In this document: piece by piece, positions 35,305 to 46,642 of the stretch
Layout of the letters: each line of letters starts with the position of its first letter
How positions within the stretch are numbered: the stretch's first letter is position 1
Source: Acidimicrobiaceae bacterium
GTDB lineage: Bacteria > Actinomycetota > Acidimicrobiia > Acidimicrobiales > RAAP-2
Assembly: GCA_947372925.1 (NCBI GenBank)
Contig: CANBVQ010000002.1
Coordinates: 1 to 64,000 of the forward strand
DNA: 64,000 nt
Reading direction: 5' to 3'
Notes under the pieces: generated by a model
What the model was told of the DNA's origin: nothing
What the model saw: only the letters and a program-made list of their open reading frames with translations
Database searches by the model: none
Program-made: the position numbers and the translations under genes

Positions 35305-36620
35305 TGAATAATTCCTTCCAACTGAATGAGACGACCGCGCACCACGGTGGCGCGAGCCCGGCCGTGGATGGTGCGGCCGTGATACGGAGTGTTACGAGCG
35401 CGGCTCGCCAAGCTGTCACGGTCTACGACGTACGAAGCGTTCGGGTCAAAGACGACGAGGTTGGCATCTTCACCAACGGTGACTGCTCCCCCGTGGGCGC
35501 TATGACCCACGCGTACGTCTTGTTCTCGCAGTTGAGCCACGCGAGCGGGACCACGCGAGAGAACATTAAAGAAGACCTGCGGATCGGCTCCAGCGCCACC
35601 TAGGGCTTCGAGAGTCAAGCCCGCGGCCTGTTCGAGGCCGAGCATGCCGGGAGGTGCCTCATCAAAGGCCATGTCCTTGGATTCGGGCGTGTGGGGTGCG
35701 TGGTCGGTGGCCACGGCGTCAATCGCCCCAGCGCGCAGTGCAGCTCGGAGAGCGGCAACATCGGAGGCGGTTCGTAGCGGCGGGTGAACCTTGAACTCTG
35801 GATCGAACGTCTCGCAGGCCGTCTCGTCCAGTGTGAGGTGATGAGGGGCCACTTCGCACGTCACCGGCAGACCTTGAGCTCGGGCCTCAATGACGAGGGC
35901 AATCGAGCGCTCCGTGGACAAGTGGAGGAAGTGCATTGAACAGCCGGTCAAGCGAACCAGTTCAATGTCGCGCATCACCATGAGCTCTTCGGCGATGGCC
36001 GGACGGCCCGTGAGGCCCAACTTGGACGAGGAGGCGCCTTCGTGCATCGAGCCACCTTGAGCCAGCGATTCATCTTCGCAGTGCTGCGCGAGTGTCACGC
36101 CCAGTGGCTGGGCGTACGTCAGGGCTCGACGCATCAGCCCGGCATCCTGGACGCCGTTGCCATCGTCTGTAAAAAGTCGAACACCCAAAGCAGCCAGCTT
36201 GGCAATCGGAGCCATCTGCGAACCCTGGCGACCGACGGTAATCGCTCCCGCAACCGCAACGTCGACGGCGGCACTCTTGCCGCGTTCGAGGACGTAGCCC
36301 ACCATTGCAACCGAGTCCAGCGCTGGCTCGGTGTTCGGCATCGCCACCACCGCGCTGTACCCACCGAGCGCGGCAGCGAATGCGCCCGTCTCAATCGTCT
36401 CGGCCGACTCTTTGCCGGGCTCGCGAAGATGGGTATGGAGGTCAACGAAACCCGGCCCCACCCAACAGCCGGCGGCATCGATTTCGACTGCGCCACTCGG
36501 GGCCGTGATGCCAGGACCAACTTCAACAATTCGACCGTCAGCAATCAGCACGTCGCCAACGAACGACTCGAGCGGACCGACGATGAGACCGCCGCGGATC
36601 ACCAGTGTGGAATTAGTCAT
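35301..36620 (-). CDS. pyrC: Dihydroorotase
   Basis: GFVDLHTHLREPGKE and AVATDHAPHTPESK. Confidence 0.97.
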   Translation of the reverse strand: MTNSTLVIRGGLIVGPLESFVGDVLIADGRIVEVGPGITAPSGAVEIDAAGCWVGPGFVDLHTHLREPGKESAETIETGAFAAALGGYSAVVAMPNTEPALDSVAMVGYVLERGKSAAVDVAVAGAITVGRQGSQMAPIAKLAALGVRLFTDDGNGVQDAGLMRRALTYAQPLGVTLAQHCEDESLAQGGSMHEGASSSKLGLTGRPAIAEELMVMRDIELVRLTGCSMHFLHLSTERSIALVIEARAQGLPVTCEVAPHHLTLDETACETFDPEFKVHPPLRTASDVAALRAALRAGAIDAVATDHAPHTPESKDMAFDEAPPGMLGLEQAAGLTLEALGGAGADPQVFFNVLSRGPARVAQLREQDVRVGHSAHGGAVTVGEDANLVVFDPNASYVVDRDSLASRARNTPYHGRTIHGRARATVVRGRLIQLEGIIQ

Positions 36621-37605
36621 TGGGGTCACTTTCTAACGTCGCGCCGGCGGTGGTGAGGTAGAGCACCGCCATGCGGACCGGCACACCATTTCGCACCTGT
36701 TGTTCGATAACGGCCGCGGAAGAATCGGCCACCTGGGAGTCAATCTCCACCCCACGGTTCATAGGACCCGGGTGCATGATGATGGCTTCAGGGCGAAGCA
36801 GCTTGGCCCGACGCGCGGTGAGTCCGTAGGTGGAGGTGAACTCGCCAAGACTCGGTACAAATGCGCCGGATCCACGCTCCTTTTGAAGTCGCAGGAGTCC
36901 CACTACGTCGGCCGTTGCCAATGCTTCATCGAAGTTGGTGGCCACCGTAACGGGCCATTGAGCAATGTCGGAAGGCAAGAGCGTCCCTGGAGCCGCCACT
37001 GTGACGTGGGCACCGAGGCGGGTGTAAACCTCGATATCGCTCCGAGCGACCCGGCTGTGCCGGATATCACCGACGATGAGAACTTTCAGGCCAGCAAAGA
37101 GTTCGCTACCCGACTCCCGCCCAGACGTGCCGGCGCGAGCCGCCAGCACCTGGCGGACCGTAAAGGCGTCGAGGAGACCTTGTGTTGGATGCTGATGTTG
37201 ACCATCGCCGGCATTAATGACACGCACGTGGGGAACGTACCGAGAGACCTGAACCGGGGCACCGGAACTGCTGTGTCGCATCACCACCGCGTCGATACCC
37301 AGTGCGTCGATTGTGTTGATGGTGTCTCGGAGCGACTCGCCCTTCTTCACACTCGAAGAGGCCACGGCCAGACTCAGGACGTCGGCACTTAAGCGCTTGG
37401 CTGCCGTTTCAAAGCTCAAACGGGTGCGCGTCGACTCCTCAAAGAAGAGTGAGGCAATGACTTTGCCCTTGAGGGCAGGTACTTTCTTAACCGCCCGTGA
37501 ATTGACCTCAACAAATGACTCGGCGGTGTCGAGGACTTCGACAATGGCGCGTTGTGAGAGCGTGGCCAAGGAAACGAGGTTGCCGCCCGCTATGGAATCA
37601 ATCAC
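36613..37605 (-). CDS. pyrB: Aspartate carbamoyltransferase catalytic subunit
   Basis: FFEESTRTRLSFE and MHPGPMNRGVEID. Confidence 0.98.
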   Translation of the reverse strand: MIDSIAGGNLVSLATLSQRAIVEVLDTAESFVEVNSRAVKKVPALKGKVIASLFFEESTRTRLSFETAAKRLSADVLSLAVASSSVKKGESLRDTINTIDALGIDAVVMRHSSSGAPVQVSRYVPHVRVINAGDGQHQHPTQGLLDAFTVRQVLAARAGTSGRESGSELFAGLKVLIVGDIRHSRVARSDIEVYTRLGAHVTVAAPGTLLPSDIAQWPVTVATNFDEALATADVVGLLRLQKERGSGAFVPSLGEFTSTYGLTARRAKLLRPEAIIMHPGPMNRGVEIDSQVADSSAAVIEQQVRNGVPVRMAVLYLTTAGATLESDPND

Positions 37606-38171
37606 TTCTTCACCAACGTTCCGATCCAGACGCCGTCAAGCGTCGCGTCAATGGCTTCTTCTTGTGACGTGGGCAGGTTCTTGCCGACGTAGTCCGCTCG
37701 GATGGGTAGTTCGCGATGCCCGCGATCGACCATGACGGCCAACTGAATCGCCTGAGGGCGCCCCCAGTCGGCGAGAGCGTTGAGGGCGGCACGAATAGTG
37801 CGACCCGTGTAGAGCACGTCATCGACCAGCAGCACCACGCGGTCGGCCAGGTCAGCGTCGACGGAGGTTTCGGCCGATTCGAGTACCGGACGGATGGTCA
37901 CGTCATCTCGATAGAACGCCACGTCGAGAGTTCCCGTTTCGATATCGACGCCAGATACTTCATGAATCACGTCGGCTAAACGTTCGGCGAAACAGATTCC
38001 GCCGGTCTGCAACCCAATGATGACGAGGTTGGCGATGTCCTCATTGCGCTCAAGGATTTCGTGAGCCATACGACGAACGGCCCGTTGAACCTCTTCGGGA
38101 GAAAGGAGTTGGGATTTGGGAACGAAAACCGTTCCCCGTTGGCGCGTGTTGAGACGCTCTCGTTCTGCCAC
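37602..38171 (-). CDS. pyrR: PyrR bifunctional regulator/uracil phosphoribosyltransferase
   Basis: VVLLVDDVLYTGRTIRAALNAL PRPP-binding motif; GTG start preceded by GGAGGG. Confidence 0.97.
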   Translation of the reverse strand: MAERERLNTRQRGTVFVPKSQLLSPEEVQRAVRRMAHEILERNEDIANLVIIGLQTGGICFAERLADVIHEVSGVDIETGTLDVAFYRDDVTIRPVLESAETSVDADLADRVVLLVDDVLYTGRTIRAALNALADWGRPQAIQLAVMVDRGHRELPIRADYVGKNLPTSQEEAIDATLDGVWIGTLVKK

Positions 38172-38181
38172 AATCCCTCCA

Positions 38182-38214
38182 GTCGTACGAGCCTCACAGG
38201 ACTCGCTTCACGAC
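38182..38214 (-). promoter_or_regulatory. PyrR-binding RNA hairpin in the pyr leader
   Basis: On the minus strand, GTCGT-GAA-GCGAG-TCCTGTGAGG-CTCGT-ACGAC: two stems, purine bulge, and AGUCCUGUGAGGCU matching ARUCCNGNGAGGYU at every position; ends 1 nt before the GGAGGG SD. Confidence 0.85.
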
Positions 38215-38247
38215 GTTTCAGGTGTTCACCCTAGCAGGGCGAACCGA

Positions 38248-38958
38248 CTAGTTCGAGTTGAGCGTCGTTACCACGAAGGTCAAGATCACCGTAGAAAGTG
38301 CGACCCAGACCCAGAAGTACCGGACCAGACGCACCTGGAACCAGCGGTCGTGGCCAATGGCTCCAACGGCCGCCCGCGTGGCCGAACCGAACGCTAGGAA
38401 GGCCAGAATCAGGGCGTGAATCACCGCCGAGACGCCGAGCGCCAGCATGCAAGAACCGTACGTCGTGTAGATCCACAGCGAACTGTCGTGCTCTACGCGC
38501 CAATACTGGGGCACCTGACGTAGCTGGACAATGCTCAAGACGATGTACGCGACGACAGCCAGTCCGGCGATGATAGAAATCGCCACAAAGGCCTTGCTAC
38601 CAGCTTCGTTGGCTCGCAAACGGGACTCGCCGAACCAGAAAATGGCGGCACTAGCGACCATAACGAGAGCAAGAATCCACGCAAAACTCGCGGAGAGTGG
38701 GGCTTCAATGATGTGCTGCATGCTGCCACCAGCGTCGAGCACCCCTTGAACCTCTTCAGCCGAGCGACCATTGGCTGGAAGACCAGTAATGGCCATCCAG
38801 TTCCCGCTTGTGTTAACCGCTCGCAAATAGAGATACGTGAAAATCAGCGCACCGGTAGTCACGACGTCTCCGCCGATGAAGAGCCAGATGCCTAGGCGTT
38901 GGCGATGGTCGACGACTTCGGGTGCTTCGTGATGTGAAGTTGCGTTGAGGTCATTCAT
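38248..38958 (-). CDS. Heme-copper oxidase subunit III-like protein
   Basis: HRQRLGIWLFIGGDVVTTGALIFTYLYLR and 5 predicted TM segments; downstream of CoxI. Confidence 0.85.
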   Translation of the reverse strand: MNDLNATSHHEAPEVVDHRQRLGIWLFIGGDVVTTGALIFTYLYLRAVNTSGNWMAITGLPANGRSAEEVQGVLDAGGSMQHIIEAPLSASFAWILALVMVASAAIFWFGESRLRANEAGSKAFVAISIIAGLAVVAYIVLSIVQLRQVPQYWRVEHDSSLWIYTTYGSCMLALGVSAVIHALILAFLAFGSATRAAVGAIGHDRWFQVRLVRYFWVWVALSTVILTFVVTTLNSN

Positions 38959-40802
38959 GACTTTGCCTCTCCGTAGGTGTAGGGGTCAGAGGTAATAACA
39001 GGAAGTACTTCGAAGTTTTCGAGCGGCACCGGAGTTGGCACCATCCACTCGAGAGACTTGCCACCCCAGGGGTTGGGGCCAGACGGCACGCCCGAACGCC
39101 ACGAGGTAATGACCGCACCCAGCAATACGAGCATGCCGGCCATAATCATGTAGGCACCGATAGTGGTGACGAAGTTGGTGTGCTCAAAGATCAATGCGTA
39201 GCTCGAGTAGCGACGCGACATGCCGCGAAGTCCCGAGACGAACATCGAGATGAAAGTCACGTGCGTTCCGATGAAGACCAACCAGAAGGAGATTCTGCCC
39301 ATCTTCTCGTCGATGAATCGTCCCGAAACCTTAGGGAACCAGTAGAAAAGTGCGCCAATTGCGCCAAAGAGAACCGAGCCGACAAAGACGTAGTGGAAGT
39401 GCGCCACCACAAACATGGTGCCGTGCATCTGGTTATCGACGGGAATGTCTGACAGGTAGATGCCAGTAATACCGCCAACGATGAAGTTGACAATGAAACC
39501 AAAGACCCAAATCATCGGCATCTTCATCCAGATATTTCCGCGCCAAATTGTCCCGAGCAGCACCAGGAAAATCACACCCGTCGGAATCGAAATCAATTCC
39601 GTGGTCAGCATGAAGGGGCCACCCAGCGTGGGGGCCCATCCCGTAGTGAACATGTGGTGAGCCCAGACCAGTGCACTAAGACCGCAGAGTCCGGCCATGC
39701 CGCCAACCACCGTTCGGTAGCTAAAGAGGGGCTTGCGGGAGAAGACCGAGGCAATTTCCAAAATGGCCCCGACGGCGGGCAGCAAGATCACGTAGACCTC
39801 GGGGTGACCCATAAGCCAGAAGAGGTTTTCCTGCAGCCAGCCCGTTCCACCACCGGAGGCAATAAAGAAGCTGGTGCCGACCATGCGGTCGGCCAAGTTG
39901 AGTGCCATTACGACAAGGAAGAATGGAAATGCGTAGAGGCCAAGGCCGGCCGCAAAGATTGAGGCCCACGCGAAAATCGGCAGGCGCTCCATCGTCATTC
40001 CCTTGGTGCGCATCGTCAGAACGGTGCAGATGGTGTTTACGCCAGCCACCGTTGTCGAGATGGTGAAGGTAATGATTGACATCGCAAAGAGGTCAAACCC
40101 GATGCCTGACTGATCGGAGATTGGACCCTGCGTCACCCAGCCCATGTCCATCGCGCCAATCGCCAGTGACCCGAGCAAGAGCGGGATAGCGGCAATCAAC
40201 GTCCAGAGGCTCAGTGCGTTGAGTCGAGGAAACGCCATGTCGCGAGCGCCGACCTGGATTGGCAAGACGAAGTTGGCCCACGGACCGGCCACCGCAACAA
40301 TCAAGCCCAAGATCATCAACATGCCGTGCACGCCGAGGAATCCGTTGTACACCTGCTGGTTTACGAAGTGGTTTCCCGGGGTAAGCAAGTTCGTTCGGAT
40401 GCCCATGGCCAAGATGCCACCAGCACCAAGCAAAACCATGGTGGCGATGATGTACTGCACACCGACAACCTTGTGGTCCGTCGTGTACTGGAAGTAGCGC
40501 TTTCGACCGAGATCTTTTCCGGCGAGATACATCTCATCGGCGTGGTTTTGATCACGACCGGTGAACCACTTACCGGGACCGGTGAGCGCACCGATGCCGA
40601 GCAAGAAGCCCACAACCCAGCCACACCCCGTCAGGACGGTGACCTGATCGGCGAAGCCTTGACCCGAATCATCGAGGAAGTGGTGACTGAGCGCCCAGGC
40701 GATAAAGCCGAAGACTAAGCCGCTTACGGCGGCGGTGCCAAAGTTCAAGCGGCGAAGAAATCCGCCGCCAACAACGTGGTGCTGTTCAAGAGTCGAATTC
40801 AT
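38955..40802 (-). CDS. ctaD: Heme-copper oxidase subunit I, divergent
   Basis: GHPEVYVILLPAVG, WAHHMFTTG, VVAHFHYVF, VGARDMAFPRLNA; 615 aa. Confidence 0.95.
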   Translation of the reverse strand: MNSTLEQHHVVGGGFLRRLNFGTAAVSGLVFGFIAWALSHHFLDDSGQGFADQVTVLTGCGWVVGFLLGIGALTGPGKWFTGRDQNHADEMYLAGKDLGRKRYFQYTTDHKVVGVQYIIATMVLLGAGGILAMGIRTNLLTPGNHFVNQQVYNGFLGVHGMLMILGLIVAVAGPWANFVLPIQVGARDMAFPRLNALSLWTLIAAIPLLLGSLAIGAMDMGWVTQGPISDQSGIGFDLFAMSIITFTISTTVAGVNTICTVLTMRTKGMTMERLPIFAWASIFAAGLGLYAFPFFLVVMALNLADRMVGTSFFIASGGGTGWLQENLFWLMGHPEVYVILLPAVGAILEIASVFSRKPLFSYRTVVGGMAGLCGLSALVWAHHMFTTGWAPTLGGPFMLTTELISIPTGVIFLVLLGTIWRGNIWMKMPMIWVFGFIVNFIVGGITGIYLSDIPVDNQMHGTMFVVAHFHYVFVGSVLFGAIGALFYWFPKVSGRFIDEKMGRISFWLVFIGTHVTFISMFVSGLRGMSRRYSSYALIFEHTNFVTTIGAYMIMAGMLVLLGAVITSWRSGVPSGPNPWGGKSLEWMVPTPVPLENFEVLPVITSDPYTYGEAKS

Positions 40803-40811
40803 TTCGCCCTC

Positions 40812-41549
40812 CTAGTTCGTCGCTGGCTGCGAAGCCAGCCAGTGCTCGAAGTTCTTCTTGGTCAATACATGAACGCGGGTCACCATGAAGGCGTGGTTCA
40901 GGCCGCAAATTTCCGTGCAGCGGATGTCGAACGTACCCACTCGGTTGGGGGTCACTGCGGTCGTTGTGATAGCACCGGGGTTGGCGTTCACCTTGATGCC
41001 CATCTGCACAATCCAAAAACCGTGGACTACATCTTTGGATGTGACTTCGAACTTAACGTCTGTGTCAACCGGCAAGTAGAGATCGTGCGAGTGAACCTGG
41101 GTACCGGCGTAGCCGAAGGACCAGACCCACTGCTGCCCAGTGACATCGATAGTCATCTCCGACTTGGACTCCGCCCCGTTATCAACGGCCAGCAGGGCGA
41201 GGCCCCAGACCAACAAGAACACGGTTAGCAGCGTTGAAACGACGAGCCAAACGCTCGTTACTGGGCTATTACCGCGGATCGGTGGCCCATCCGGTGGGAT
41301 GCCCTCACCCTTGTAGCGCCACTTCGTAAGAGCCACAATCACGACGGCGTAGACCAACGCTGCGACAGGAGCTGCGGCGACGGTGAAAACAACCATCGTC
41401 AGAATGCTGAGATGCATGGTGTTGCTAGCGGACGTGGGCATCAACCAAGGTGTCCCGTAGATGCCGATGACCACACCCAGTACCGTGATGGCCAGCCAAA
41501 TCCAGAAGATCTGGCGGAGATTCTTTTTCTGATTGTCGTTTGACGTCAT
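40812..41549 (-). CDS. ctaC: Heme-copper oxidase subunit II with CuA site
   Basis: GQQWVWSFGY, SKDVVHGFWIVQ, and CuA motif CTEICGLNHAFM. Confidence 0.95.
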   Translation of the reverse strand: MTSNDNQKKNLRQIFWIWLAITVLGVVIGIYGTPWLMPTSASNTMHLSILTMVVFTVAAAPVAALVYAVVIVALTKWRYKGEGIPPDGPPIRGNSPVTSVWLVVSTLLTVFLLVWGLALLAVDNGAESKSEMTIDVTGQQWVWSFGYAGTQVHSHDLYLPVDTDVKFEVTSKDVVHGFWIVQMGIKVNANPGAITTTAVTPNRVGTFDIRCTEICGLNHAFMVTRVHVLTKKNFEHWLASQPATN

Positions 41550-41558
41550 CGTGCTCTC

Positions 41559-42302
41559 CTACTTAACCGTCAATGTGCCGGACATGTAGCCGTACGTCGA
41601 CATGGCTGAACCGAACTGGCCGATGCGCGTACCACCACAGGGGTATTCGCAGTTCCACTGGTAAACACCCTTGCTACCGACGTAGAAGCTGAACGTCACC
41701 ACGACTGGATCCTTCGGGTAATACCCAGTCCCCTGCGGTGCGCAAATAGATGCATCGGGCTCTGCGGGGTCGCAGACATCTACTAGATCATTCGGCGGGA
41801 TTGGTACTGAAACGAAGATGTCACGGCCACTACCGGGAATGCCGCGCAAGGTAAAGGTGTGCCCGACGTGTTCGGGATCCCAGTGCTTCACCTTTTGTCC
41901 GTTCACCCAGGCAACGTTGTCCACCGTGCCGATGACGTGGCCAAAATACGGATTGTTCAAAGACTCACCACCGTCGTACTGGTTGACCGTGATGGTGACG
42001 AGCGAATTCTCCGGAACGACAAGATTGTTATTGGTGTAAGCGACCCAGTCAGGGTGAGCGCCGCCATTTTTTCCGAAAACGGTGCCGAACTGCGAGTCCG
42101 GGTAGGCGCCGATAGTTAGCGCGACGTGCTTCACGGTCTTCGGAGCTCCGTCCACGGTGACAGTGGAGGCACCGACATTGGTGGCCACCAGTGCGTCTTG
42201 GGTCGGCTGAGCGTGAGCGAGGGCGATTCCAGCCACGGCAATCACGATCGCACCAAGCGCCACTGACGCGAGTGATGCGACGACGGCTTTAAAACGTGTC
42301 AT
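41559..42302 (-). CDS. Exported cupredoxin-like protein with degenerate CuA-like motif
   Basis: N-terminal signal/TM; C-terminal WNCEYPCGGTRIGQFGSAM; first gene of the coxII-coxI-coxIII unit, SD AAGGGGGG. Confidence 0.7.
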   Translation of the reverse strand: MTRFKAVVASLASVALGAIVIAVAGIALAHAQPTQDALVATNVGASTVTVDGAPKTVKHVALTIGAYPDSQFGTVFGKNGGAHPDWVAYTNNNLVVPENSLVTITVNQYDGGESLNNPYFGHVIGTVDNVAWVNGQKVKHWDPEHVGHTFTLRGIPGSGRDIFVSVPIPPNDLVDVCDPAEPDASICAPQGTGYYPKDPVVVTFSFYVGSKGVYQWNCEYPCGGTRIGQFGSAMSTYGYMSGTLTVK

Positions 42303-42355
42303 CTGAATTCCCCCCTTGTTTCCAAACCACATAGAAAAAACTTCGTAGTCGTCAT

Positions 42356-42383
42356 ACCATACGCCTTAGCGACATCGTGTCAA
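42356..42383 (-). promoter_or_regulatory. Candidate cox operon promoter (TTGACA-16-TATGGT)
   Basis: TTGACA (minus, 42378-42383), 16-nt spacer, TATGGT (42356-42361); implies a leader of about 45-50 nt. Confidence 0.6.
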
Positions 42384-42400
42384 GGGTTTAGTCTGAAGAC

Positions 42401-42715
42401 GTGGACCAGAAGCAAAAGACGGAACTGCGCATCCACTTTGGACTGCTACTGGCCGAAGTTATATGTATTCCCGCATTTATCTTTGAATTGAGCCGTGCCC
42501 TGGGGGGCAACACGCTTTCTTGGGCCTACGTCTTTGAATGGCCGATTCTCGGTCTCTACGCCATCTACGTCTGGCGGAAGTTACTTCGAGAAGAGCGGGG
42601 CGAGATGACAGCGAAGCCCGCTGCCCTCAATGAGCAGCACGACCAGCAGCTCGACGAATGGAATGCCTACCTCGCCAAAGTTCACGGACTCCCTCAGTCC
42701 GAAGGTGATGAGTAG
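42401..42715 (+). CDS. Small two-TM membrane protein, divergent from the cox genes
   Basis: Two hydrophobic segments and a charged tail; GTG start with TAGTCT 6 nt upstream. Confidence 0.65.
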   Translation: MDQKQKTELRIHFGLLLAEVICIPAFIFELSRALGGNTLSWAYVFEWPILGLYAIYVWRKLLREERGEMTAKPAALNEQHDQQLDEWNAYLAKVHGLPQSEGDE

Positions 42716-43416
42716 CGATCTACAGCCTGTAACAGCGAGCCATCGCGGGCCGCGAGACGCCGGATTAACACGACAAAGAGTGGCACAGCCCAAACGTCTC
42801 CACAGATCCACAAAATGGCGGCCGCCAGTTGCTGTGAACCGAAATCACCCGGCATCTCCATACCCGGCATAGAGGCCATGGAGTGGTACCAGGCAGCCTT
42901 AGTGAATATTGACATCGACATGGCCAGAACAAACATCACGACCGTGGTGAGTACCACGCCTCCCAACTGCCATCGCATCTGAATCGGTCGCTGCTCTGAG
43001 TGGGGGGCCAGTACAACGGAGAAGAACCAGACTCCGGAGAGAAAGAACAGTGGCTCGACCAGTAGCGATCGCATGACTTCGCTACCCATCGATGCGTCAA
43101 AAACAGCCGGAAGATGAAAGATCACCATCGTCGCATTGAGCACCACCAGCGGAACCAGCGGGTGGATTCGCTGAGACAAGGGTGGCACTTCCCCACTGGC
43201 CACCAGACACAAAGGGGCCAAGAACATCAACACGATGTGGCTAATCATGTGATTTGGTAACGAAGAAGCCGCCCAGGTTGAGAATGGCGGTATCGCCGAG
43301 ATCACCAGGAGAACTGAACCGGCGGCCAGCCACAACTTGTTCGTGGCGGTAATTCGACGGAGGTTTAACCGCCACAGCCCCCACAGTCCCACGACGAGCA
43401 GGGGGTACTCAATCAT
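42694..43416 (-). CDS. ctaG: CtaG-family cytochrome c oxidase assembly protein
   Basis: Polytopic; LPNHMISHIVLMFLAPLCLV, DQQLAAAILW-type signature (QQLAAAILWICGDVWAVPLF); between coxII and the SCO fusion. Confidence 0.85.
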   Translation of the reverse strand: MIEYPLLVVGLWGLWRLNLRRITATNKLWLAAGSVLLVISAIPPFSTWAASSLPNHMISHIVLMFLAPLCLVASGEVPPLSQRIHPLVPLVVLNATMVIFHLPAVFDASMGSEVMRSLLVEPLFFLSGVWFFSVVLAPHSEQRPIQMRWQLGGVVLTTVVMFVLAMSMSIFTKAAWYHSMASMPGMEMPGDFGSQQLAAAILWICGDVWAVPLFVVLIRRLAARDGSLLQAVDRYSSPSD

Positions 43417-45158
43417 TTTTTCAAGGAGTCAATCGCGCGTTCCAAGACGCGCGCCGTAGAGGCACGTCCCGCAGAACCCGGTGCGGGGTCATCGCCCACG
43501 ATGTAACGAATCTGTCCAGCCTCATCAATGATGTAAATGACGTTGGTGTGGATACTCATGCCGTGCTCACCACCGGAGGTCACGGTGATGCCATAAAGGC
43601 TGAACACATCGACGAGCTGTTGCGCTGAACCGTTTAGGAAGTACACGTTATTCGTGTTCGCCAAGTCGTATTCACCCATGAAGTGCGAAATGTCAGTCGC
43701 ACTGTGATCTTGAAGATTGGCCGCTACCACCACCATGGCGACTTGGCGGTCGGAGTTTGCGTAGTGATTAACAACATCAAGTAACTGGTGCCCAATTTGA
43801 GGACACTCCTCGTAGCAAACCGGATCGAGGAAACTCAACAGAATGACCTCACCACGATGCTCGCCGAGTGAAAAAGGTTCGCCCTGATGGTCGGTGAGTT
43901 CGAAGGGTGGGGCGGGAGCCGACACCGCCGAGACATCACCGTTGTAGACCTGGTACAGCGTTGCCTCCACGGGGCGCATGAGGGCGCCGCCCCCGATAAC
44001 GACTCCAACAAGCAGCGCCGCTGATCCGAGGGCGATAGCGGCGTTAGCGAAGGCCGCTCGACCGTGTGGACCAACGCGAAGAGACAAGGGTGCCGCAGTG
44101 CGCATTCCGGGGCTGACGGTAAAGCTAATGAGCGCCACGAGAATCAGTGAGTTTGGATCAGTGGCAAGTCCTCCGAACAGCCCCGTGTCTTGAATCAAGA
44201 CCCAGCCGGCGAGCGAACCGATCACGAGAGAACGCGCGGGCCACGCGAAGCCCGACACGGTGCTACGCCAGAGTCCAACCCCGGTGGTCATCATCCAGAC
44301 CACCAGCATGATGTTGATCCCCGGGCCGGCCGCGCGTACGACACCAGCAAAAACATGTCCGAGCCCTGCCAGCAATCCCGGCTGAGGCACCTCGGTCATT
44401 TCGAGAATCATCGCGTTTAGCGCATTGTCCTGCCCGTTGGACCAGAACCCATTGTTAGGTAGCGCCTGGAGAATGGCGCCGAGAATCAGAATTCCCCCGA
44501 GTAGGCGTGTAACCACGGCCTGATAGACGTGAGGGAAGCGTTCCGTCGACATTGCGACCGCGAAGCCGGCTATGACGTAGAAGATTGGGGCGCCAGGCCA
44601 ACCGAAGAGGAACGATGGCGCGTGGCCAAACAGTCCACCGAAGCCAGTAACGATCCAAATAATCAGTGCCCAAATGGCCGACAGCCTGCCAGCGATTCGG
44701 CTCGTCCGGCCGCTAGAGCTGAGCAGAAGAATTCCGAGGCCCAGCTGCAGCCAAACAACAGACTGCGCCAAGGCGATGGGATGTTGATTCCAAAGCTCCA
44801 CCGCACCGTTGATGACGCCGTGCCACCACGTTGGCGCCGCTTCCTTCGACGGTTCTAGAACTTGGCTGCCGAGACCCAAAGGCATAGCCGTCTGCAGCTG
44901 AAGAATTCCATCGAGAATCCAGAGCAGTCCAAGTCCGGTTCGCAGAATGGTCCGCCCTCGCGGTTCGCTCCATTCTGGCGAGTTAAATCCGCCGCGAACA
45001 CTGCGCAGGGCCAGAAGCACTGAGAGCAGCACAGCGATGCCCAGTAGCCAAACAAAATTCGAGTGGAGTCCTTCGCGAAAGAGATTCACGATGGTGGGGT
45101 TATGGACGTCGACCCCTTGACCCATTCCCGGCATTACTCCGTGAGCCATTCGCAGCAT
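43413..45158 (-). CDS. Polytopic membrane domain fused to a SCO1/SenC domain
   Basis: About 380 aa of TM helices followed by a SCO domain (FLDPVCYEECPQIG CxxxC; HTNVIYIIDEAGQIRYI distal His). Confidence 0.85.
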   Translation of the reverse strand: MLRMAHGVMPGMGQGVDVHNPTIVNLFREGLHSNFVWLLGIAVLLSVLLALRSVRGGFNSPEWSEPRGRTILRTGLGLLWILDGILQLQTAMPLGLGSQVLEPSKEAAPTWWHGVINGAVELWNQHPIALAQSVVWLQLGLGILLLSSSGRTSRIAGRLSAIWALIIWIVTGFGGLFGHAPSFLFGWPGAPIFYVIAGFAVAMSTERFPHVYQAVVTRLLGGILILGAILQALPNNGFWSNGQDNALNAMILEMTEVPQPGLLAGLGHVFAGVVRAAGPGINIMLVVWMMTTGVGLWRSTVSGFAWPARSLVIGSLAGWVLIQDTGLFGGLATDPNSLILVALISFTVSPGMRTAAPLSLRVGPHGRAAFANAAIALGSAALLVGVVIGGGALMRPVEATLYQVYNGDVSAVSAPAPPFELTDHQGEPFSLGEHRGEVILLSFLDPVCYEECPQIGHQLLDVVNHYANSDRQVAMVVVAANLQDHSATDISHFMGEYDLANTNNVYFLNGSAQQLVDVFSLYGITVTSGGEHGMSIHTNVIYIIDEAGQIRYIVGDDPAPGSAGRASTARVLERAIDSLKK

Positions 45159-45169
45159 TACAAACTCGC

Positions 45170-45577
45170 TTACTTATCCGCGTACCACGTGGCGAAACAT
45201 GCCGACAGCACACCATTAACAAAACCTGGACTGCCATCAGTGGAGTAGGCCTTGGCCAGCTCCACAGCTTCATCAATAACTACCGCGGTAGGCGGGCAGT
45301 CAGGTAGACGTATTTCGCACAGTGCCAACATCATGATGAGTCGGTCCACGAGGGGCATCCGATCAAACTGCCAATCATTGGCGTGCGAACTAATGATCTC
45401 TTTAGCCCACCCCTTGTGAGTCTCAAAACTCTCGAGCAACGCGAATGCGTACGCGTCAGGGCGGAGGGGAAGTTCAGTTAGGACCGATTCAACTGAGCGT
45501 TCTTTGATTGCTGCTTCGTACGCCACTTCGAGGGCACGTTCGCGAGCCCGATGACGTTGTTCGCCCAGTTCGCTCAC
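45170..45577 (-). CDS. nusB: Transcription antitermination factor NusB
   Basis: RHRARERALEVAYEA; PPTAVVIDEAVELAKAYSTDGSPGFVNGVL. Confidence 0.95.
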   Translation of the reverse strand: MSELGEQRHRARERALEVAYEAAIKERSVESVLTELPLRPDAYAFALLESFETHKGWAKEIISSHANDWQFDRMPLVDRLIMMLALCEIRLPDCPPTAVVIDEAVELAKAYSTDGSPGFVNGVLSACFATWYADK

Positions 45578-45580
45578 CGG

Positions 45581-46147
45581 TTAGGCCCGTGTGATGTAGT
45601 CGCCGGTGCGCGTATCTACCTTGATGTTTTCACCGGGTCCCACAAAGAGAGGTACCTGTACCACGAAACCTGTCTCCAAAGTGGCGGGCTTGCGGGCACC
45701 AGAAACACGGTCGCCTTGAACACCGGGTTCGGTCTCGGTAATGATGAGTTCGACCGAAGCGGGCATTTCCACGCCGATCACTTCTTCGTTGTGCAAGATA
45801 ACGAGAGCCTTGCCGGACTCCTTGAGAAAGTTGATAGCCGTTCCCAAGGATTTTTCCTGCACGGGGATCTGGTCGTAGTTGGTCTGGTCCATGAAGACGT
45901 AGTCCTCACCGTCGCGGTACAGGTACTGCATGTCCCGCTTGTCGATGATGGCCTGCTCCAGACGTTCGTCGGCACGGTACGTACGTTCGATGACCTGACC
46001 GGTTCGGAGGTTGCGCAGCTTGGTGCGCACAAAGGCGCCACCCTTGCCGGGCTTGACGTGCTGGAACTCGATAATGGTGAACAGACCATCTTCAACGTTC
46101 AGCGTTACGCCGTTCTTAATGTCGTTACTGGAAATTGCGGGCATCAC
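45581..46147 (-). CDS. efp: Elongation factor P
   Basis: EFQHVKPGKGGAFVRTKLRNLRTGQVIERTYRADE; GDRVSGARKPATLETG. Confidence 0.97.
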   Translation of the reverse strand: MMPAISSNDIKNGVTLNVEDGLFTIIEFQHVKPGKGGAFVRTKLRNLRTGQVIERTYRADERLEQAIIDKRDMQYLYRDGEDYVFMDQTNYDQIPVQEKSLGTAINFLKESGKALVILHNEEVIGVEMPASVELIITETEPGVQGDRVSGARKPATLETGFVVQVPLFVGPGENIKVDTRTGDYITRA

Positions 46148-46201
46148 TGACCTAACTCTTCATTTCGTGCGTGGTTAGTGTACGCCCTGCGGCGTGAATT
46201 C

Positions 46202-46642
46202 CTATGCCTTCAGATGTGCGAGGACGGCGTGAGCTGCCAATTCATACCCGAGGGCGCCAAATCCCGCAATGGAGCCACTCACAGCCCCAGCGACCGTGGA
46301 GAGGTGACGGAAAGGCTCACGGGCGGCTGGATTCGAGAGGTGAACTTCAATCTTGGGTCCGCTGAACGTCTCCAGGGCATCGCGTAGCGCCCAAGAGCTG
46401 TGGGTTAGCGCTCCGGGATTGAAGACAATCGCCACCGCATTTGTTCGTGCCTCGTGAATTGTCTCAATCAGCGTGGCTTCAGAGTTCGACTGCAAGGAGT
46501 GGACCGAAAAGCCGGCCGGCGTCACGACTGCGGTGAATCGACGCTCGTGGTCGGCGAGCGTTTCTTTCCCGTAGATCTCGGGACTGCGCTCCCCCAGAAG
46601 ATTCAAATTCGGACCCGATAGGAACAGGATTACACCACTCAT
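46202..46642 (-). CDS. aroQ: 3-dehydroquinate dehydratase, type II
   Basis: FLSGPNLNLLGERSPEIYG; FNPGALTHSSWALRDAL. Confidence 0.96.
   Translation of the reverse strand: MSGVILFLSGPNLNLLGERSPEIYGKETLADHERRFTAVVTPAGFSVHSLQSNSEATLIETIHEARTNAVAIVFNPGALTHSSWALRDALETFSGPKIEVHLSNPAAREPFRHLSTVAGAVSGSIAGFGALGYELAAHAVLAHLKA

Follow-up and report, generated by a model that had tools for sequence, protein, structure and literature searches.

Loss of K-channel residues and an invariant helix VIII glutamate in a clade of A-family cytochrome c oxidases from Actinomycetota and Chloroflexota

The definition of the type A (A1) haem-copper oxidases includes six His ligands, a Tyr in helix VI, a D-channel and a K-channel with Lys354, Thr351 and Ser291 (P. 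denitrificans numbers; Sousa et al. 2011, PMC3084760). The K-channel terminates at a tyrosine (PMC8079940). The D-pathway delivers about seven of the eight protons per cycle, and the K319M exchange mainly blocks haem a3 reduction and has been described as completely inhibiting (PMC12901375); a natural loss of this Lys therefore needs compensation. The main text of Degli Esposti et al. 2021 (PMC8239418) describes a deep COX1 clade ('2TM') whose members have two additional N-terminal helices and are encoded near ctaG, and it reports archaeal family A enzymes in which the K-channel is altered or lost. Both K-channel losses and a COX1 clade with two extra helices are thus already published, and the clade reported here is a variant thereof. 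It is an old question whether an oxidase can do without the K-channel, as is the split of chemical and pumped protons between the channels, and both have so far been addressed with nearly inactive mutants.

The window analyzed here is a stretch of 64,000 nucleotides (contig CANBVQ010000002.1, positions 1 to 64,000) from an Acidimicrobiaceae bacterium, and the oxidase-cluster genes and residues given with coordinates below lie on its minus strand. The coxA gene (38955..40802; 615 aa) encodes cytochrome c oxidase subunit I (PF00115, E = 1.2e-118) and scored 541 bits against TIGR02891, under the cut-off of 670.75. About 100 additional residues at the N-terminus of CoxI are predicted to form two extra transmembrane helices (residues 21-42 and 50-70) in an AF2 model of moderate confidence (mean pLDDT 70). 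Subunit II with its CuA site and three likely transmembrane segments is encoded by coxB (40812..41549; TIGR02866 above cut-off, PF00116). A membrane protein without a Pfam match (38248..38958) overlaps the end of coxA and is subunit III-like by position and by being kept in orthologous loci. Upstream of coxB lies a secreted cupredoxin-like protein (41559..42332), again without a Pfam match, which is present in 18 of 19 same-locus relatives. It carries CxxxC, GHTF and a Met without an obvious second His, and is found upstream of coxB in both of the oxidase cassette types described below. The operon also holds a CtaG-type oxidase assembly factor (42694..43416; PF09678, E = 2.6e-22) and a SCO1/SenC copper chaperone domain (43413..45158; PF02630, residues 417-549), the latter fused C-terminally to a membrane region of about 400 residues. 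Both copper assembly factors are retained across the same-genus genomes.

The genome (1.49 Mb, 96 % complete) contains two CoxI genes, and the second one, on another contig (C8), is canonical with Lys, Asp and the HD pair. No haem A synthase (CtaA, PF02628) was found in this genome. A CtaA match was found in 23 of the 24 other genus genomes searched, so that its absence here is probably an assembly gap. A search of the same genome for a bd oxidase found none.

Bovine residue numbers follow an aligned bovine COX1 sequence, which agreed at 16 positions of known identity and in its length (514). At the K-channel Lys site (bovine K319), the window enzyme has Ile411, encoded by ATT (39570..39572) within IPTGVIFLVLLG. 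The Ser site in helix VI (bovine S255) is Leu348 (39759..39761), and T408 is the only one of the three type A K-channel residues that remains (I411, T408, L348). Neither the adjacent turns of helix VIII (IPTGVIFLVLLGTIWRG) nor the stretch of helix VI at its channel end, ahead of K357, contains a Lys. In CoxII, Thr98 (41256..41258) stands at the entrance of the K-channel, the position of E62 in bovine subunit II. As Ile411 and Leu348 in CoxI and Thr98 in CoxII replace channel residues, the K pathway is absent as a unit from both subunits. At the Mg site, the (His/Thr/Gln)-Asp pair of most A-type enzymes is His460-Gly461 here (39420..39425, within HGTMFVVAHFHY; bovine H368-D369); the His is kept and the Mg-ligand Asp is replaced by Gly (GGC, 39420-39422).

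All six His ligands (H159, H333, H382, H383, H468 and H470) and the cross-link Tyr337 of helix VI (bovine Y244) are present, and the D-channel is complete from Y117, N177, the entrance Asp188 (40239..40241; bovine D91), N195, S198 and N256 to the terminal Glu335 (bovine E242; codons of Glu335 to Tyr337, 39792..39800). Compared with the type A (A1) definition of PMC3084760, the enzyme has the His ligands, the Tyr and the D-channel and lacks the K-channel. The preliminary description of this locus had reported the ATT codon, the Asp to Gly exchange and the retention of the haem and CuB ligands together with the D-channel Asp and Glu, all of which the alignment bears out; its proviso of a displaced Lys is answered by the absence of any Lys in the adjacent turns. 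Leu348, CoxII Thr98 and three gained residues go beyond it. These are Glu402 in helix VIII (39597..39599, in TTELISIPTG; bovine M310), Ser405 (39588..39590; bovine A313) and Asp452 in the periplasmic loop between helices IX and X (39447..39449; bovine N360).

The preliminary description had also left room for a known family with another channel, and the diagnostic residues of types B and C are absent. Type B was ruled out since Thr, Ser and Tyr form its alternative K-channel at the Lys, Thr and Ser positions, where the window enzyme has Ile, Thr and Leu. Type C (cbb3), with its Tyr in helix VII and Ser and Tyr at the Thr351 and Ser291 positions, was ruled out by the helix VI Tyr, T408 and L348. 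CcoN sequences have Ser at HH+25 and Leu or Ile at HH+19, and Glu402 is not at the cbb3 channel position. Nitric oxide reductases (no cross-link Tyr; H-X-Arom-X-E and HH-X-Arom-Arom-X17-E) were ruled out by Tyr337 and by Ile404 at HH+21. Glu402 was also rejected as an equivalent of the helix VIII Glu of these reductases, as A, C and NOR sequences share a distance of +24 from HH to Pro, yet the NOR Glu occupies +21 and Glu402 occupies +19.

These residues also bear on whether the main function is still O2 reduction. The second, canonical CoxI of the genome could carry respiration, and K-pathway mutants of A-type oxidases retain peroxidase-type partial reactions, both of which would suit a main function as NO reductase or peroxidase. 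However, the cross-link Tyr is retained and the NOR Glu motif is absent, the operon holds a CuA subunit and copper-assembly genes, and the solved structures that match best in sequence and in fold are O2 reductases. Such a change of function is considered very improbable.

CoxI sequences were collected from named genomes, the class and the phyla Chloroflexota and Actinomycetota and aligned with MAFFT (165 sequences). The comparison covers 161 sequences, 85 of the K-less clade and 76 with the K-channel Lys (K-containing), gathered by similarity and not by random sampling. With channel columns removed, a FastTree tree unites exactly the 85 K-less sequences, which come from Actinomycetota and Chloroflexota, in one clade (support 0.996). 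When B, C and NOR outgroups were included (IQ-TREE), the clade had a UFBoot value of 100 without sequence L174 and 82 with it. K-containing A2 oxidases were the sister group on this tree (99), and the loss of the Lys is therefore derived. The clade is one of soil and groundwater bacteria; its named members include Ktedonobacterales, groundwater Actinomycetota, Chloroflexi and bog or palsa Acidimicrobiaceae. A search of 349 Pseudomonadota genomes, which included no positive control, gave no close relatives at E ≤ 1e-138. One CoxI match was split into two adjacent stretches (L157/L158; G187:C28:196714-198474), possibly by an indel or a frameshift.

Three groups were observed within the clade. 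Group a (n = 27) is A2-like and has YSHPAVY, the D-channel Asp and the Mg Asp. Group b (n = 27), which includes the window enzyme, has GHPEVY, the D-channel Asp and Mg-site Gly, and its catalytic and D-channel residues are intact and invariant. Group c (n = 31) has GHPEVY and Gly or Ala at the Mg site, its D-channel Asp is mostly replaced by Arg or Lys, and bovine N98 is replaced by Glu in 31/31. Groups b and c join with a support of 100 (IQ-TREE). They nest within a YSHPAVY background (group a and the K-containing A2 oxidases) in the same tree, and the D-channel Glu may therefore have been regained. The Mg site is Gly in 57 of the 58 members of groups b and c and Asp in 27/27 of group a. Since the A2-like K-less enzymes retain the Mg Asp, its loss is separate from that of the K-channel, and the two changes, which the preliminary description had listed together, are better treated as distinct traits. 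Group c CoxI (L022-L034 except L032, L042, L044, L045, L168-L173, L180-L183 and L186) is without the entrances of both channels.

Seven other genomes of the genus, found in the first search, contain orthologues with 67-83 % identity, all of which are K-less with HG at the Mg site. Twelve further genus genomes contain a different CoxI of group c (about 39 % identity) in which the K-channel is absent and the D-channel Asp is lost (GARRMAFPRIEA), and wherever the contig was long enough this gene was found at the same locus (aroQ-efp-nusB-SCO...pyrR-pyrB). A group b or a group c oxidase cassette thus alternates by species at one chromosomal place (36613-46642 in the window; loci L015-L034), and no genus genome of the first search contained both. 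This alternation between aroQ-efp-nusB-SCO and pyrR-pyrB looks like cassette replacement. The coxA orthologues are under strong purifying selection (dN 0.13-0.21, dS >1.4). A sequencing error or pseudogene was rejected as the origin of the missing Lys, because it is missing in all orthologues read from the own and related genera and because of this selection.

The bovine K319 site is hydrophobic (I/V/F/L; Thr twice) in 85/85 clade members and Lys in 76/76 K-containing sequences, all of which also have Trp at bovine W323, a residue not found there in the clade. Ser or Thr occupies the bovine S255 site in 76/76 K-containing sequences and neither occurs in the clade. Glu402, Ser405, Asp452 and Q116 are invariant in the clade (85/85). 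Among K-containing sequences Glu402 has no counterpart (0/76), Ser405 occurs in 7/76, and the Asp452 site is S, A, V or I in most. Counting residues from the HH motif, without an alignment, gave the same result on Glu402 for 83 of 85 members, the other two not being parsed properly. The columns of the two extra N-terminal helices are filled in 85/85. Loss in CoxII runs parallel: among 41 CoxII partners of K-containing CoxI, 40 have Glu at the bovine E62 site and one has a gap, whereas no CoxII partner of K-less CoxI from the window group or the A2-like group has this Glu, and 4/26 from group c do. We also searched 397 Actinomycetota genomes with a profile of K-containing A2 oxidases and examined the best 30 matches, of which 27 (some overlapping with the earlier set) have the Lys without Glu402 and three are K-less with Glu402; no K-containing intermediate with Glu402 was found among these 30. 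Gain of Glu402, loss of the K-channel and loss of the CoxII Glu share one branch and therefore represent one historical event, not repeated covariation.

The preliminary description had read the enzyme as active with altered proton entry and unlike standard A-type oxidases. The intact catalytic site and D-channel, the missing K-channel and the constrained gene are consistent with this reading, which needs correction insofar as the enzyme is not singular, being one member of a monophyletic clade that spans two phyla. We infer from these residue patterns, with a probability of about 0.5, that it is an active cytochrome c:O2 oxidoreductase with CuA and an A-family fold, in which the D-channel would carry all protons and Glu402 would serve as a relay. 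Its clade lost the K pathway once, as a unit (the Glu of CoxII together with the Ser and Lys of CoxI), while Glu402, Ser405 and Asp452 became fixed. The D-channel (Y117, D188, N177, N195, S198, N256 and E335) would supply both chemical and pumped protons, and Glu402 would locally donate or relay protons to the haem a3/CuB/Tyr337 site, substituting for the K pathway in the reductive half-cycle. This reading is favoured because Glu402, in the same helix as the lost Lys, comes directly after a conserved Thr (bovine T309) lining CuB, and because Ser405 occupies a position in contact with haem a3 (bovine A313). Against a relay, helix periodicity places Glu402 on another face than T408 and position 411.

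In group c, the missing entrances of both cytoplasmic channels mean that another entry seems to be needed. It is possible, as a tentative extension, that a Glu-based path (Glu402, Ser405 and Asp452) replaces the K-channel and in group c works without the D-channel Asp, needing neither known cytoplasmic channel. Alternatively, chemical protons might enter from the periplasm through the altered Mg and exit region (D452, H460-G461 and E402), as in cNOR, with less energy conserved. The new invariant acids, one near the level of CuB and one in a periplasmic loop as judged from the alignment with bovine COX, would fit such a route, as would the loss of the Mg Asp in groups b and c and the group c enzymes without entrance residues. 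We nevertheless regard it as rather unlikely, since group a combines K loss, D452 and E402 with a retained Mg Asp, the NOR Glu occupies HH+21 and not the HH+19 of E402, and the D-channel of group b is complete.

A Lys-free cytoplasmic path resembling the K-channel, with waters leading from E349 (bovine position 256) to T408 and Tyr337, seems less likely still. The E349 position is acidic (E/D) in 85/85 clade members, T408 is invariant, and the smaller residue at bovine W323 could leave space for water. However, the Ser and the CoxII Glu are also lost, the Lys site is bulky and hydrophobic, and Glu at the E349 position is common in K-containing enzymes too (59/76).

The role proposed for Glu402 in the D-channel reading would be particular to this clade. 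Four sequences elsewhere in the tree (L055, L062, L063 and L153) have Met, Leu or Ala for Lys and no Glu402, and they are separate K losses. Glu402 is therefore not an obligatory substitute, and its role as a general rescue of Lys loss is unsupported. The CoxII Glu is missing as well in L055, L063 and L153, the three with CoxII read. In two further sequences elsewhere in the tree (L208 and L209) Lys is replaced by Gln, again without Glu402.

The literature searched, which covers the main text of PMC8239418, contained no mention of an invariant helix VIII Glu, of the CoxII Glu co-loss of the clade or of a group lacking both channel entrances, and papers on archaeal orders and assembly proteins contained no description of the K-less clade. 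Natural, conserved K-less enzymes and relatives without both entrances offer one invariant new Glu as a mutation target. The clade would show whether one channel suffices for pumping by a haem-copper oxidase and what compensates for the loss.

The archaeal family A losses (PMC8239418, main text) and the six dispersed sequences named above resemble the window enzyme in being otherwise A-type without the Lys, but they lie elsewhere in the tree and lack Glu402. With the '2TM' COX1 clade it shares two extra N-terminal helices and a caa3-type CtaG in the gene cluster, whereas the main text of that study (PMC8239418) describes no bacterial clade that combines complete K loss with an invariant Glu in helix VIII. 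The K-containing A2-type (YSHPAVY) oxidases of Actinomycetota (L075, L150, L190-L194 and L236-L260) are the sister group and several have the N-terminal extension; unlike the window enzyme, they have the Lys, the Ser and, where read, the CoxII Glu, with Ala in place of E335 and no Glu402. The A1-type aa3 enzymes (Mycobacterium bcc-aa3 CoxI, PDB 8hcr/7rh6/6adq, and the second CoxI of the own genome) are the best sequence match and among the best fold matches. They share the fold, the six His, the Tyr, the D-channel and the GHPEVY Glu with the window enzyme, which differs from them in lacking the K-channel Lys and Ser, the CoxII Glu and the Mg Asp and in having two additional N-terminal helices, Glu402, Ser405 and Asp452.
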